Of a DNA stretch of 61,456 bases, positions 4,152 through 9,282 are shown piece by piece. The translations under genes were made by a program, and so were the position numbers. Source of the stretch: Arcicella aurantiaca (GTDB taxonomy: Bacteria > Bacteroidota > Bacteroidia > Cytophagales > Spirosomataceae); assembly GCF_003148625.1 (NCBI RefSeq), contig NZ_QGGO01000033.1, positions 1-61,456 of the forward strand, given 5' to 3'. Within the stretch, counting starts at the first letter, position 1, and the number at the start of each line of letters is the position of its first letter. A model generated the notes under the pieces. The model made no database searches. It was not told the DNA's origin and saw only the letters and a program-made list of their open reading frames with translations.

Positions 4152-4440
4152 ATGTATTGGAACAGAATGCTCAAAATACTGTCTTTGGGACTGTATTTGT
4201 CTGTTTTTCAAGCAATTGGACAACACAAAAAAGTAGAAATTGTTAAGTTTGAGGATTTGCAACAACTTATAAACCATGCCACTGATACCACTTTAGTTGT
4301 GCATTTTTGGGCTACATGGTGCCGTCCATGTGTCGAGGAGTTACCAAGTCTTGAAAAACTAAGTCAAGAATATTCAACCAAGAAAGTGCGTTTCTTGATG
4401 GTTAGCATAGACTTTCCGAAGGATTTAAAGGAAAAAGTTA
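4152..4440 (+). pseudogene. TlpA/ResA-like thioredoxin, 5' part (interrupted by IS1595 element)
   Basis: N-terminal half of an exported thioredoxin-fold protein: hydrophobic signal segment (~6-22, ending AIGQ), then VVHFWATWCRPC with the redox CxxC at about residues 57 and 60, and VSIDFP. Translation runs into the inserted element, adds a few foreign residues (ELYTY) and stops at 4460. The rest of the protein is at 9056-9282. Joining base 4440 to 9056 keeps the frame (Thr codon ACG split over the junction) and gives ~171 residues, normal for this family. The fragment keeps the active site but lacks the cis-Pro half of the fold, so it is very probably inactive. Confidence 0.9.
4433..4440 (+). 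repeat. Left target-site duplication
   Basis: AAAAGTTA abuts the left inverted repeat and is repeated exactly at 9048-9055 after the right inverted repeat. Eight base pairs is the characteristic duplication size of IS1595-family insertions. Confidence 0.93.
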
Positions 4441-4465
4441 CGGAACTATATACTTATTGACGCAA
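4441..4465 (+). repeat. Left terminal inverted repeat (IRL)
   Basis: 25 bp identical to the reverse complement of 9023-9047. The outer end reads CGGAACTATATACTT. Weaker similarity (AAAAAG, CCC) continues inward. Confidence 0.93.
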
Positions 4466-4479
4466 CTTTCAAAAAGCCC

Positions 4480-4516
4480 AAAAATGCCCTCTATGCGGCT
4501 TTTGAGGGCATTTTTT
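4480..4516 (-). terminator. Terminator overlapping transposase stop
   Basis: Stem AAAATGCCCTC (from 4481) with GAGGGCATTTT (to ~4514) and a T-run. It overlaps the transposase stop codon at 4491-4493. It would end leftward transcription before the element's edge. Confidence 0.7.
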
Positions 4517-5564
4517 GAGATGAGACAACATCTCTCGCTCGCTTTTTGCCGTCTCTAATCTTTTTTGAATTTGTAGTCATTCCTTTGATTATTGTATCTG
4601 ACGGAAGCATAGAGTTAAATACAAGAGTCTCAAACATATCATCAAATTTACGATTATTGTACTTAAAACAGAACTCATCTACATAATTTGGGAGATATTT
4701 CTCACTTACGCTGTGATATTGCCCTATAATTCCCCTTTTTACGATTGCCCAAAAGGATTCAATACTATTTGTGTTTAGTCCTTTGTAGGAATACATCTTG
4801 CTATGGTCAATCTTAATATGCTCTATGATAGTGTCAAACTTGCTATATGCCTTAAATTCGTCTGTGATAAGCACACTTTCATCCATATCTACATAATGCT
4901 GAACCATTGCCTTAAAATTCTTCCAATTAGTTTTCTTCATTACTTCGGCAATCACGTCCCCATTTCTTTGCACCATACCCACGACAGGCACTTTACTTGT
5001 ACCACGACCTCTGGGGGCATCTTCTGTCAAACCGTTTTTCTTAATAGCGTTATTGTCAAAGGTAAATCTATCTGTTAAATCTTCTAATTTATCTTCCAAA
5101 TACTCGTTATAGTCCATTGCACCCGTGTATTTGGCACTTTGAAATTTACGGGGTTTTCCCCCGACATAGGTCTCGTCCATTTCCACGATGCCATTTAGGG
5201 AAATAAAGCCGTCAGACATGATTTCACGGACTTGGTGGTACATCTTCCAAGCTGTTTTGGGTGTGATTCCTAAATGGCGATGAAGTTGCAAAGCGGAGAT
5301 TCCTTTTTTTGCATCACTTATGATTGCAAAGCACATTAGCCAAACCCTTAATGATAGCCGTGTATGATGCAAATAAGTGTCAGAGGTAACGGAGAATTTC
5401 CTTCTACATTCATTACAAAAATATCTAAAATCAACGTATCTTTTTGAAGCATTTTTAGAACCACAATGACAACAAATAGGCTTATTGCCCCAACGCACAT
5501 ACTCAAAATAATTAGTAGCTTCCGTCTCTGTTGGAAATGAGTCAGCAATTTTTATAAGATTCAT
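4491..5564 (-). CDS. IS1595-family (ISXO2-like) DDE transposase
   Basis: 357 residues, full length. An N-terminal zinc ribbon has CxxC pairs at 31/34 and 50/53. A helix-turn-helix region follows (~85-115, ISALQLHRHLGITPKTAWK). The ISXO2-type catalytic domain has D130 (VEMDETYVGGKPRK), D235 (LITDEFKAY) and E269 (NTNSIESFWAIVKRG), matching the family's DDE layout. It mobilises the element by acting on the 25-bp terminal repeats. It is intact with no frameshift, so the element may be autonomous. It lies 184 bp downstream of the cargo ATPase on the same strand but is separated from it by a hairpin. Confidence 0.95.
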   Translation of the reverse strand: MNLIKIADSFPTETEATNYFEYVRWGNKPICCHCGSKNASKRYVDFRYFCNECRRKFSVTSDTYLHHTRLSLRVWLMCFAIISDAKKGISALQLHRHLGITPKTAWKMYHQVREIMSDGFISLNGIVEMDETYVGGKPRKFQSAKYTGAMDYNEYLEDKLEDLTDRFTFDNNAIKKNGLTEDAPRGRGTSKVPVVGMVQRNGDVIAEVMKKTNWKNFKAMVQHYVDMDESVLITDEFKAYSKFDTIIEHIKIDHSKMYSYKGLNTNSIESFWAIVKRGIIGQYHSVSEKYLPNYVDEFCFKYNNRKFDDMFETLVFNSMLPSDTIIKGMTTNSKKIRDGKKRARDVVSSQKMPSKAA

Positions 5565-5701
5565 TATTTTGTTTTAAACTGGAAAGTATTTTATTAACAG
5601 GAGTAAATATATAATATATTTCTTTAAAGCATGAATTTAAAAGAAAATAATTCCGTAAAAATTCAATTTAAAAGAATTATTTTCTAAACCAAATTGTAAA
5701 A

Positions 5702-5738
5702 AAACCGCTCTAAGTTATTTTAAAACTGCGAGCGGTTT
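5702..5738 (-). terminator. Hairpin terminator after cargo ATPase
   Basis: Stem AAACCGCTC (5702-5710) pairs with GAGCGGTTT (5730-5738). It lies just past the ATPase stop codon, with an A-run on the plus strand that would be a U-run in the leftward transcript. This separates cargo transcription from the transposase. Confidence 0.65.
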
Positions 5739-5747
5739 ATTATCTGA

Positions 5748-7550
5748 CTAAATATTTAAGAACTTGATTTTTGAAGATAGTTTTACGATTGCTTGTTTTT
5801 CTATGTTGTCGATAGATAACTCACCTTCCTTGTTTCCAAATTTTTCTGTTAAGTCTCCATCATCGTTTAACGTAACAATGTATTGTATTTTTTTTCCTTC
5901 ATTAATCAATCTTGAAATGAATTTATAAGTATATACAAAATGTGATTTATCCATACTATCAAAAATCCCATCATGTATTAAAAATCTTGGCAGTGCTATA
6001 CCTTTATTTATTGAATTTAATAATATTGATAAGTCATAGATTAAAGTTCGACCACTATTTTTCCCTTTTGAATCATCGGAAGGCATGGAAACTTTAATAC
6101 TAACTTTTGATTCTGTTCTACTATTAGCTTCAATTGAAAACGCCGAACTTTTACTTTCTGGATAAATTTGATTGTGGACGTGGTTAAATACTTTTTTAAA
6201 TTGTGAAATGAGTTCTTCCGAATCTTCAATTAATTCTTTAATACTTCTACTTAATTCTGCACCTTGACGTTTCCAAATATTTTCTTGTTCTTCTAACCTT
6301 TTGTATTCTTCATAATACTCAGTAATTTTATTTAACTCTGCATTGGTATCACCAAGAACCGTAAAAGCCTCTTGCAAATCTTTAATTGCCCCATGATTTA
6401 CATTTAATAATTGAAATATAGAACTGCGTTTTAAATCAAGATTAATAATCTCATCGCTTCTATTAGCAATATTTAATTCAAGTTCTTTAATCTCATTGTT
6501 TAAAAAATCTTTTCTTGATTCTGATAGCATTTTACGAAAATACAAAGCCTCATTTAACGTTTTTTTAATAACATTTCCCAACTCCCTATTCAACTCACTA
6601 TACATTTTCTCAATGCTTTTAACTGTACTTTGTTGAATATTTCCATCTGGAAGGTTCAAACTTTCTTTATAAGATTCCACCTTTCTATTATCCCAAAAGT
6701 TTTGAGCAGCTAATTCTTTAATTTGATTAGTTAATTCATTTAACTCGTCTTCTCTTTTTTGATGTTGTTCAGCTAACTTAAAGTTATCAACGATATTTTG
6801 AATCCTTGCTTTTTCGTTTTTTAAGAACTCAATTCTATTTGCAGTTTCATCAATTTTCAATATCCCATAATTTTCAAGAATATTTCTCTTCTGCTTTCTG
6901 ATAAGTGCTTGTTGTTCTTTGATATTAGAAATCAACTCAAAGTTTTCGCAAATCAATGAATTATTTAAGCCCAAAAAAAAGAAGTTATATTGGTTAAGTT
7001 CTACTTGCTTGTTTGCTCCATACACAATATATTCAGTAGGCTCTTCAAAAAGTTGTCCATTTCTTTTGTGAATTTTAAGGAAAAACACCATTAATTTCCT
7101 ATACCATGAATCCTTAATAATACCTTCATAATCAGGATTTGAAAATATTTTCTCTGTAAGGATTAGTTTTAGGTTTTTCGTCTGAAAAGTCTGTAAATCA
7201 AAAATATTTGTTCCGAACTCAACCTCTTGGTGTTTTGCAAAACTTCGCTTTATAACATAATCTACACCATTTAATTCAAACTCTAAAACTGCTGTGTATT
7301 GTTTCAAAAACTCTTTCTTAGCATAAAGTCTTGGAGTACGTGTATTAAAATCTGCTAACAAACAAAAATCAATCAAATTTAAAAAAGTGGATTTTCCTAT
7401 ACCGTTTAATGATTCTTTGGGTTCATTTGAAGTTATTTTTTTGCCAAATACAAAATTTACTCCATTCTTAAACTCAACAACATTGTTATTTTGAGTTATT
7501 CCAGAGTTGAATAAACCTAATGGCTCACTATATAGCTTTTTTAAATACAT
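5748..7550 (-). CDS. DUF2326/YydD-type ABC ATPase of an ABC-three-component system
   Basis: 600 residues with SMC/RecN-like organisation. The N-terminal half-ATPase has a P-loop NGIGKST (about 48-54). A long coiled-coil region follows (~210-450, rich in Glu/Lys/Leu/Asn). The C-terminal half has a signature-like SGRTLIYDLS (~490-500) and a Walker B-like strand RFLIHDGIFDSMD (~518-530), typical of DUF2326. In ABC-3C systems such ATPases are thought to sense nucleic-acid or nucleoprotein states and control a linked effector; that role is predicted from family context, not shown here. It starts 2 nt after the small middle-component gene, so the two are surely co-transcribed. Confidence 0.85.
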   Translation of the reverse strand: MYLKKLYSEPLGLFNSGITQNNNVVEFKNGVNFVFGKKITSNEPKESLNGIGKSTFLNLIDFCLLADFNTRTPRLYAKKEFLKQYTAVLEFELNGVDYVIKRSFAKHQEVEFGTNIFDLQTFQTKNLKLILTEKIFSNPDYEGIIKDSWYRKLMVFFLKIHKRNGQLFEEPTEYIVYGANKQVELNQYNFFFLGLNNSLICENFELISNIKEQQALIRKQKRNILENYGILKIDETANRIEFLKNEKARIQNIVDNFKLAEQHQKREDELNELTNQIKELAAQNFWDNRKVESYKESLNLPDGNIQQSTVKSIEKMYSELNRELGNVIKKTLNEALYFRKMLSESRKDFLNNEIKELELNIANRSDEIINLDLKRSSIFQLLNVNHGAIKDLQEAFTVLGDTNAELNKITEYYEEYKRLEEQENIWKRQGAELSRSIKELIEDSEELISQFKKVFNHVHNQIYPESKSSAFSIEANSRTESKVSIKVSMPSDDSKGKNSGRTLIYDLSILLNSINKGIALPRFLIHDGIFDSMDKSHFVYTYKFISRLINEGKKIQYIVTLNDDGDLTEKFGNKEGELSIDNIEKQAIVKLSSKIKFLNI

Positions 7551-7552
7551 TT

Positions 7553-7777
7553 TTATTTTACAAGTCGTACTGTATAATTTTCATAGACAATAATATCAAA
7601 CATTGCCAAAAAGGTCAGAGTATTATAAAATTGATAAAGATTTATTTGCTTAATATCTTTCATTTTTAGAAATAAATCTTCAATATTATATTCCTTCTTT
7701 TTGAGCAGTTTAACAATGTCATAACCTAAAAAAATCAGGCTTTTATGTAAGTTTTCTTCTTTTGATGGAATAACCAT
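7553..7777 (-). CDS. ABC-3C middle component-like small protein
   Basis: 74 residues, all-alpha with a short beta end, consistent with a winged-helix domain (helices around LHKSLIFLGYDIVKLL and IEDLFLKMKD, wing-like DIIVYENYTVRLVK). ABC-3C operons normally encode a small winged-helix 'middle component' between effector and ATPase, which is the position here. Its start codon shares one base with the stop of the HNH gene (TAATG) and its stop is 2 nt before the ATPase start, indicating translational coupling. Assignment rests on context and size more than on recognised residues. Confidence 0.7.
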   Translation of the reverse strand: MVIPSKEENLHKSLIFLGYDIVKLLKKKEYNIEDLFLKMKDIKQINLYQFYNTLTFLAMFDIIVYENYTVRLVK

Positions 7778-8715
7778 TAGAATAAATTTAGTTGTATCAA
7801 ATCAACAGGCTCTTCTCCAAGATTACAAATTTCAAAATAATGGATAATAATTGCTTTTGCATTAATTTGATACTTTGAGTCTTCTATATATCTCACTGGT
7901 AGTATTCTTTTAGCAAGTTTTTCAAACGCCGAAAAGTCTTTAATTTTAATATTGTGGTCAGTTACACCCAATATTTCACAGAAACATGATTGGATTTTTT
8001 CTCTCAAAATATCTGGCTTGTCATCATTAAGCTCACTTAATTCTCGAAGATAGTCATCAACAAGATTTTTTCGTTTTGTAGAATTTACTATCATAGAATT
8101 GACCCTATTTCTATGTTCTTCTGGAAAATTTAAGTCTATTTTGACTTTAAGTCTAAAATTGATATTTTCCTTCGTTAAAGAACGTATGTGTTCGGAAGGA
8201 TAAGTAATAGATGTGTCAATATAATCAAAAATTTCCCTAATAATTTCGTCATCTTCAAGTATTTGATTAATTGATTGATTTCCATAATAGTTATTGTTAA
8301 TAGTGTTATTACTATTGATTGTTGTTATTGAGTTATCAATAATTATTTGATTTTCAATAATACTATTGATTCTGTCTTCATCAATCAACGTAGGATTTTC
8401 TAAAAATTTAGCCTCATGCTCTGCTTTCCATTGTTTTAAAATTGATGTTGTATATTTCCCTTCGTTTTTGTCAATTTTGGAATGGTGTGATGGACACATA
8501 ACAATTAAATTGTCAAACTCATTTGGATTTATATTCTGGGAATTGTATCTGGCTGATTTATTGTTTAACCCTTCAATGTGAGCAATTTCACCATTGAAAG
8601 TTTCACCATCAAATAAGAGAACTGAACAATCTTGTTCTAAAAAACAGCACTTATTTCCACTCAATGCAAATAGTTTTTTCAAAGTAAGTACACTGTATTT
8701 CCGTGATTCAGCCAT
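7777..8715 (-). CDS. HNH nuclease effector with ABC-3C-type C-terminal region
   Basis: 312 residues. Residues ~10-105 form an HNH domain: KKLFALSGNKCCF with Cys23/Cys24/Cys30, IAHIEGL with His46, DNLIVMCPSHHSKID with Asn69, Cys74, His77 and His78, then a closing helix LKQWKAEHE. A linker rich in Asn (about 127-150) leads to a helical C-terminal region ending in a hydrophobic strand-like tail (AIIIHYFEI...LIQLNLF), as in ABC-3C effectors whose C-terminal domain docks to the ATPase module. Predicted role: DNA cleavage when the system is triggered. First gene of a three-gene leftward operon within the transposon. No immunity gene is seen. Confidence 0.78.
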   Translation of the reverse strand: MAESRKYSVLTLKKLFALSGNKCCFLEQDCSVLLFDGETFNGEIAHIEGLNNKSARYNSQNINPNEFDNLIVMCPSHHSKIDKNEGKYTTSILKQWKAEHEAKFLENPTLIDEDRINSIIENQIIIDNSITTINSNNTINNNYYGNQSINQILEDDEIIREIFDYIDTSITYPSEHIRSLTKENINFRLKVKIDLNFPEEHRNRVNSMIVNSTKRKNLVDDYLRELSELNDDKPDILREKIQSCFCEILGVTDHNIKIKDFSAFEKLAKRILPVRYIEDSKYQINAKAIIIHYFEICNLGEEPVDLIQLNLF

Positions 8716-9022
8716 AATTTTGTGTAAAAAAGCAGTTAATATGGTAAAGATTAAATATGGTTAAACTAAGAATTTTTAAAATGAATATGTTATTACAGAA
8801 TTTTTAGGCAACTTAATGCATTATTCTGTAATAAAATAGAGTAATTCTACGCAATTTAGTTACGGAATTGCAATTATTTTACAACAATTTGGATTACCAA
8901 AAAAGAAACAGATTTAATGTCAAAAAAAGATGAGGTTATAAATTATTCAAAATTAAATCAAATATTTGATAATTATAAACTAAAAAGTGCCTTTAAATAC
9001 AGGAATGGGACTTTTTATAGAT
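8716..9022. promoter_or_regulatory. Non-coding region upstream of the cargo operon
   Basis: About 300 bp, very AT-rich, between the HNH start and the right inverted repeat. It must contain the cargo promoter. It holds one clear inverted repeat (8790-8834) and a 41-codon rightward reading frame (8917-9042) that ends inside the terminal repeat and has no recognisable content. Confidence 0.5.
8790..8834. promoter_or_regulatory. 12-bp inverted repeat upstream of ABC-3C operon
   Basis: TTATTACAGAAT (8790-8801) and ATTCTGTAATAA (8823-8834) are perfect inverse copies with a 21-bp spacer. They lie 75-119 bp upstream of the HNH start codon. It could be an operator or paired half-sites; it lacks a T-run on either side and so is not an obvious terminator. 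Confidence 0.5.
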
Positions 9023-9047
9023 TTGCGTCAATAAGTATATAGTTCCG
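9023..9047 (-). repeat. Right terminal inverted repeat (IRR)
   Basis: 25-bp reverse complement of 4441-4465, no mismatches. Confidence 0.93.
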
Positions 9048-9055
9048 AAAAGTTA
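9048..9055 (+). repeat. Right target-site duplication
   Basis: AAAAGTTA, identical to 4433-4440. Confidence 0.93.
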
Positions 9056-9282
9056 CGTCTTTTGTGAGTAAAAATAACATCGAATCTGAAGTTGTATTGT
9101 TAGATGAACCCGACTATAATGCGTGGATTGATGAGGTGGACAAAGATTGGTCTGGTACAATTCCTGCTACTTTATTAATAAATTTAACTATGGGAAAACG
9201 GGTTTTCTTTGAAGGACAAGTGAATATGGAGCATTTTGTTGATGAATTAAAGAAAATGACTCCAGCAACAGGTGCTAATTAG
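9056..9282 (+). pseudogene. TlpA/ResA-like thioredoxin, 3' part
   Basis: Continuation of the gene begun at 4152. Read in the frame set by the 4440/9056 junction it gives TSFVSKNNIESEVVLLDEP, then DYNAWIDEVDKDWSGTIPATLLIN, which carries the cis-proline (TIPAT) of the thioredoxin fold, and the final helix. A GTG/ATG-less start nearby means this fragment probably is not translated by itself. A redoxin gene follows 155 bp downstream, suggesting the intact locus encoded two thiol-redox proteins in a row. Confidence 0.88.

Follow-up and report, generated by a model that had tools for sequence, protein, structure and literature searches.

An IS1595-family transposon carrying a predicted ABC-3C operon in Arcicella aurantiaca

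Defence genes are usually said to be carried by prophages, plasmids, large islands and Tn7-like transposons. Contig NZ_QGGO01000033.1 of Arcicella aurantiaca (assembly GCF_003148625.1) raises the question of whether a simple DDE transposon can be such a carrier as well. An earlier reading of positions 1 to 61,456 of this contig (hereafter the window, 61,456 nucleotides), made from the sequence alone, had proposed that positions 4433-9055 contain a complete IS1595-family transposon with an HNH/middle-component/ABC-ATPase module as cargo. Our analysis makes it probable that this is a complete and probably recent IS1595-family "transporter insertion sequence" (transporter IS) carrying an ABC-3C operon, which would move as a unit and would act in defence.

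Limits of the element and its insertion site

The existence of the element and the position of its borders are nearly certain. It is 4,607 bp long (window positions 4441-9047) and is bounded by perfect 25-bp terminal inverted repeats with the sequence CGGAACTATATACTTATTGACGCAA (left end 4441-4465, plus strand; right end 9023-9047, minus strand), which are identical at 25 of 25 positions. The 8-bp target duplication AAAAGTTA lies directly outside both ends, at 4433-4440 and 9048-9055, and the span given by the sequence-only reading coincides exactly with the element and its two duplications.

The element interrupts a thioredoxin-like gene on the plus strand, with the 5' part of the gene at 4152-4440 (Pfam Thioredoxin, 1.3e-9 on the truncated frame) and the 3' part at 9056-9282. 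Joining the flanks and removing one copy of the duplication restores a single thioredoxin-like frame of 168 amino acids. This gene was found in all eight genus genomes and is uninterrupted in the seven congeners, which thereby provide the empty site. All seven align to the joined flanks as one piece across the join, with 0-12 gap positions, the best alignment (L245) covering 493 columns at 80% identity with no gap; the element is therefore present at this site in only one of the eight genus genomes.

The ends were also compared with chance expectation using a rule with three parts: an 8-bp duplication free of mismatches, ends that start with CG or GG and agree at 15 or more of 20 bases, and a transposase between them. 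The rule was applied to 103 transposase loci, consisting of that in the window, two others of the same genome, 20 order-level stretches and the best 80 of at least 573 confirmed IMG/VR matches. Clean-ended elements were obtained at 51 of these loci (15 from genomes and 36 from IMG/VR), whereas none of the 103 qualified in any of five runs with surrogates, which were random sequences of equal dinucleotide make-up (5 x 103, or 515 tests). The remaining 52 loci yielded no such element, in part owing to nearby contig ends. The studied element matched at 20 of 20 end bases. Outside these two places the draft genome contains no exact copy of its 25-mer; 14 other sites carry it with 2-3 mismatches.

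The transposase and related elements

The transposase, encoded on the minus strand at 4491-5564, is an IS1595-family (ISXO2-like) DDE protein of 357 amino acids with a zinc ribbon and the residues D130, D235 and E269, which are invariant across nine aligned transposase sequences. It scored above the cut-offs for Pfam DDE_Tnp_IS1595 (2.8e-34, 118.8 bits, cut-off 27) and Zn_ribbon_IS1595 (3.4e-8, 33.8 bits, cut-off 25.4) and for NCBIfam transpos_IS1595 (1e-52, 179.1 bits, cut-off 75), and its frame is open, in agreement with the earlier description of an intact ISXO2-like transposase.

Two more IS1595 elements were found in the genome, on contigs C40 (1,750 bp) and C38 (2,005 bp), with transposases 62-64% identical to the one studied here. 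Both have 20 of 20 matching end bases, exact 8-bp duplications and one small cargo frame each, and their ends start with CGGAACTAT, as do those of the studied element. Since related elements share this end start and the 8-bp duplication, such ends belong with this type of transposase. In the order-level search the closest transposase from another genome (G213) had 57% identity, and its surroundings (L092) yielded no bounded element; plasmid records gave ten transposase matches, each below 60% identity.

The genome also contains short elements resembling miniature inverted-repeat transposable elements (MITEs), in each of which one end or both differ from the end of the studied element by no more than 2-3 mismatches. 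An exact 8-bp duplication accompanied 7 of the 11 two-ended copies inspected, and a twelfth place (L020) was one-ended. The main type, of 160 bp, has at least 10 full-length copies in this genome, and its sequence gave 79 matches in congener G292, a number inflated by the palindromic core, which matches both strands. The MITE-like copies L014, L016-L019, L021-L023 and L025 are 119-174 bp long, and all except L019 have a palindromic core of the type CCTCACCCCC...GGGGGTGAGG. No IS1595 transposase was detected at E<=1e-15 in the seven congeners, whose draft genomes are 84-99% complete. Ends so similar to those of the element suggest that a transposase of its kind has been active in the genus.

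The cargo genes

All genes of the element lie on the minus strand and are transcribed in the order HNH-type protein, MC6, ATPase, transposase, and each of the four frames contains only its terminal stop. The HNH-type effector (7777-8715, 312 amino acids) matched the PADLOC model PDC-M68A at 1.5e-25 along with endonuclease effector models. The middle component (7553-7777, 74 amino acids) scored above the Pfam MC6 cut-off (4.4e-7, 30.2 bits against 27.2). The third protein (5748-7550, 600 amino acids) is a coiled-coil ABC ATPase of the Rad50/SMC/LmuB-like kind, with a Pfam DUF2326 match of 9.6e-22 (77.6 bits, cut-off 28.7) and a best PADLOC match to PDC-M68B (7.8e-62), with LmuB in second place. 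These matches are strong evidence that the cargo is an ABC-3C module, as had been proposed, composed of an HNH-type effector, MC6 and a DUF2326 Rad50/Lamassu-like ATPase, and a conflict or defence function is likely.

The predicted model of the ATPase (predicted local distance difference test, pLDDT, 83) was searched with Foldseek. The closest structure was 9a6c, titled an integrative model of YydD-YydB (E 1.2e-24, template modelling (TM) score by query 0.53), followed by 9uxh, type II Lamassu LmuACB with DNA (E 3.1e-11, TM score by query 0.37), and there were further matches to Rad50 and SMC heads. The Walker A motif NGxGKS is invariant in 12 aligned ATPase sequences. The effector appears to consist of an N-terminal nuclease-like part and a C-terminal part common to other ABC-3C effectors. 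Residues H46, N69, H77 and H78 of the effector are invariant in four aligned sequences, and its C-terminal part aligns with those of the effectors at L112, L113, L115 and L116. In the sister effector L114 the CTD10 match was sub-threshold (24.3 bits against 28.1), and L117 and L118 had no CTD match.

The three cargo genes form a tight operon, in which one base is common to the stop of the HNH gene and the start of MC6, and MC6 is separated from the ATPase gene by 2 bp. Between the ATPase and transposase genes there is a terminator-like hairpin (5702-5738, minus strand, -16.1 kcal/mol) with a run of seven Ts on its 3' side, so that the cargo may form its own transcription unit; a consensus terminator scan listed none. 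Upstream of the operon, a leader at 8716-9022, inside the right end, contains no listed open reading frame (ORF) of at least 60 amino acids, and a scan for Bacteroidota-type promoters upstream of the cargo returned only a lone -7-like match at 8955. The G+C content is 29.6% for the element and 35.3% for the rest of the window, 37.2% for the transposase gene and 28.2% for the ATPase gene; this contrast fits separate origins of cargo and transposase, which it does not prove. As for the surroundings, two genes near the element are thioredoxin/AhpC-like, and further neighbours resemble, by eye, ribosomal proteins L21 and L27, mutL and a NifU-like protein.

Relatives of the module elsewhere

The HNH-MC6-ATPase order recurs in L075, L112 and L113. 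These are the nearest whole-module relatives, with ATPases 41-45% identical and cargo proteins overall 29-45% identical to those of the element. The L075 module adjoins genes that by eye resemble hsdM, an Abi-type gene and hsdS, L112 is on a 3.7-kb Flavobacteriaceae contig and L113 on a Bacteroidetes contig. At L115-L118 the MC6 match and the ATPase are kept while the effector is different or cut down to its C-terminal part, which is the layout expected of ABC-3C. L114 has the ATPase and a layout that is similar by eye, with no MC6 match. A second ABC-3C module, composed of an effector, MC6 and a DUF2326 ATPase, exists in the same genome on contig C30 (G000:C30:17635-20585, corresponding to L013:4636-7586); its effector matched CTD12 at 3.7e-18 and Mrr_cat below threshold, and no IS1595 end or transposase was found near it in the 14.5 kb read.

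ATPase searches covered 291 genomes at the order level, of which 18 had a match, and 395 at the phylum level, of which 10 had a match at E<=1e-60, both counts including this genome. A search of contigs with two peptide patterns, which finds close relatives only, added 17 loci. Altogether 44 ATPase contexts besides the window were read (18 + 17 + 9), at most 42 of them distinct since L241 is the same as L121 and L076 the same as L126. ATPase matches also occur in 50 plasmid records and one phage record, counted as matches only and outside the comparison of contexts.

No second IS1595 element with ABC-3C cargo was found in the order-level, phylum-level or contig ATPase contexts. A tblastn search with the window transposase around the 44 other ATPase loci gave no match, a weak negative as several contigs are short and G081:C73 was left out. 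Conversely, at the 117 other transposase loci examined nothing matched the ATPase, MC6 or HNH protein. The sequence-only reading would have been refuted by the same four genes in related genomes without the ends and repeats; the four genes were not found elsewhere. Related three-gene modules that lack the transposase do occur, one of them next to genes that by eye resemble a type I restriction system, so the module is a known unit independent of the IS1595 vehicle, and its pairing with that vehicle was seen once.

Cargo of IS1595 elements

Other cargo types, which the sequence-only reading had thought worth seeking, were found as well. Among the 51 bounded elements, 47 have a cargo frame of at least 70 amino acids and 41 one of at least 120 amino acids, although the frames were called mechanically and some may not be genes. 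Carrying cargo is ordinary for this vehicle. By our own grouping, restriction, methylase, TIR, Panacea or ABC-3C genes are present in 12 of the 51, or in 16 if NYN, PIN and M78 proteins are added, and in the rest the cargo is a P63C protein or some other product, in many cases an unnamed one, or none is listed. A phylum-level search added 15 further loci, from which eight bounded elements were obtained; their cargo was mostly small and unnamed, and none of the 15 gave an ABC-3C protein match.

Three IMG/VR elements have cargo that looks like whole type II restriction-modification pairs: a C5 methylase with an NgoFVII-type endonuclease (L152:5938-9015), a type II methylase with an endonuclease by PADLOC models (L163:2541-5005), and an EcoRI-type methylase with a GmrSD_N/HNH protein (L164:4684-9775). 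Another, of 2,082 bp (L147:2357-4438), carries the candidate defence pair PDC-M50A and PDC-M50B/ThsB TIR. Methylase-HNH proteins were found in L099 and L206, N6 or N4 methylases in L135, L155 and L166, Panacea in L100 and L109, NYN in L103 and L171, PIN in L175 and M78 in L098, and Panacea-type antitoxin genes adjoin small ORFs in two IS1595 elements. The commonest named cargo was P63C, with 6 of 69 cargo proteins (L098, L111, L129, L188, L205 and probably L135). Small cargo proteins that by eye appear membrane-anchored were seen at L011:6381-6785, L012:6714-7520, L257:7399-9481 and L258:8562-9014; those of L011 and L012 had no Pfam match, and all four are candidates for unknown systems.

A PADLOC search with the 69 cargo proteins gave, among the best 25 of 244 families, chiefly type II methylases (at most four members each) and mad2 (four members). 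DNA methylases made up 7 of the 69 cargo proteins as against 1 of the 94 nearest flanking proteins (Fisher p about 0.011), with the family group picked post hoc, counts taken at about E<=2e-20 from the best 25 of 28 and best 25 of 69 families, and many of the flanks belonging to IMG/VR contigs. As a sign that defence genes are enriched in the cargo this excess is only suggestive, and lone methylases in cargo need not be defence genes.

Mechanism and alternative explanations

The proposed course of events is that the transposase recognises the 25-bp ends and that everything between them would move as one unit. By analogy with Lamassu and ABC-3C relatives, the DUF2326 ATPase would detect abnormal DNA brought in by a phage or plasmid, and MC6 would link the ATPase to the effector, the HNH protein, which would then cut DNA so that infection is halted or the cell killed. 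A host retaining the module would benefit while the transposon brings it to further sites, and a jump onto a plasmid or phage could bring it to new hosts.

Several observations weigh against the interpretation as a recently moved transposon with a working ABC-3C system. The fold matches of the ATPase are significant yet loose (TM scores of 0.53 to YydD and 0.37 to LmuB, and a root-mean-square deviation above 30 A for the first three), poor superposition of whole chains often being seen among coiled-coil proteins. Its Walker B motif is HDG, in which the canonical Asp-Glu is replaced, and HDG is common to all 12 aligned sequences. A profile search of solved structures with the ATPase gave no match at 0.01. 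The effector matched Pfam HNH_2 at only 0.021, below the cut-off, had no match to a Pfam ABC-3C C-terminal family at E up to 0.1, and produced a poor structure model (pLDDT 57.6). Lastly, the 25-mer search showed the element only once in the draft genome, and a single copy gives no direct sign of present movement.

A different reading accepts the transposon as real and has the cargo serve it, as an addiction device or as a means of excluding competing plasmids, phages and transposons. Panacea-type antitoxin pairs stabilise DNA, and, as described above, such genes lie beside small ORFs in two other IS1595 elements. A Lamassu system is active on plasmids as well as on phages, according to an excerpt of a review (PMC10586767). 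Against this, no antitoxin-like partner was seen in this cargo, and relatives of the module sit in genomes outside IS1595 elements, one of them adjoining restriction-like genes; we regard this reading as rather unlikely. Less plausible still is that the cargo was captured by chance and is an inert hitch-hiker heading for decay. The pairing is a single instance, and 117 other transposase loci lack its proteins, yet the three frames are open and the motif residues are kept despite 29-45% identity to the nearest full-module relatives, which points to long selection somewhere. That transposase and module are chance neighbours with coincidental repeats, as the occurrence of the module elsewhere without a transposase might suggest, is rejected in view of the 25/25 end match, the exact 8-bp duplication, the restored host frame, the seven uninterrupted congeners of seven and the 0 of 515 surrogates.

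Returning to the transposon with defence cargo, we put forward tentatively a broader proposal, for which the case is nearly balanced and falls slightly short of probable: that IS1595 elements form a general class of pocket-sized defence transposons, single-gene units that repeatedly capture and trade complete immune or conflict modules. The modules behind it are the ABC-3C operon described here and, elsewhere, type II restriction-modification, the ThsB/TIR pair (PDC-M50AB) and Panacea. The earlier suggestion that such a transposon would be a compact way of spreading conflict systems gains partial support from these restriction-modification, TIR/ThsB and Panacea cargoes and none from a second ABC-3C copy.

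Comparison with known systems and significance

Passenger genes in IS1595 elements, to which the sequence-only reading had referred, are on record: an excerpt of PMC3129680 describes "transporter ISs" with passenger genes, referring to the 2009 IS1595 paper, and excerpts of PMC3129680 and PMC7986276 cite Siguier, Gagnevin and Chandler (2009) for the transporter IS and the IS1595 family. The element studied here shares with them the IS1595 transposase, the inverted ends, the 8-bp duplication and passenger genes between the ends, and is set apart by its passenger, an ABC-3C operon. None of the open-licence papers listed reported an IS1595 element with an operon of the ABC-3C or Lamassu-like kind.

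The cargo resembles ABC-3C and the PADLOC candidate PDC-M68 in its DUF2326 ATPase, its MC6 and its exchangeable effector. Unlike the relatives read, none of which is beside an IS1595 transposase, it lies inside a simple transposon. With Lamassu (LmuABC, DdmABC) it has in common an ATPase with fold matches (9uxh, 9ux7, 9hqx, 9nyg), a small middle protein and a nuclease-like effector, and ABC-3C is counted within the Lamassu superfamily in an excerpt of a review (PMC10586767). Membership in Lamassu proper was considered and rejected. The ATPase fits PDC-M68B far better than LmuB (2.6e-14), and neither MC6 nor the HNH protein matched the PADLOC models LmuA or LmuC at E up to 1.

Tn7-like elements are large, with several genes for transposition; the present one is 4.6 kb long and has a single transposase gene. 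It is like them in being a transposon that carries a defence-type system, such cargo having been described for Tn7-like transposons in an excerpt of PMC8649781.

With its exact borders, its length of 4.6 kb and an empty site that can be identified, the locus is a clean example of one transposase having inserted an ABC-3C module, and ABC-3C-like systems may therefore travel in very small mobile packages. It also yields a search rule, in that IS1595 ends and the 8-bp duplication delimit a cargo module without help from neighbouring defence genes. Because the limits of the cargo are set in this way, unknown genes inside it can be taken as candidates for new systems, and if IS1595 elements are indeed a general class of defence transposons, some cargo genes of unknown function would be undescribed immune systems.

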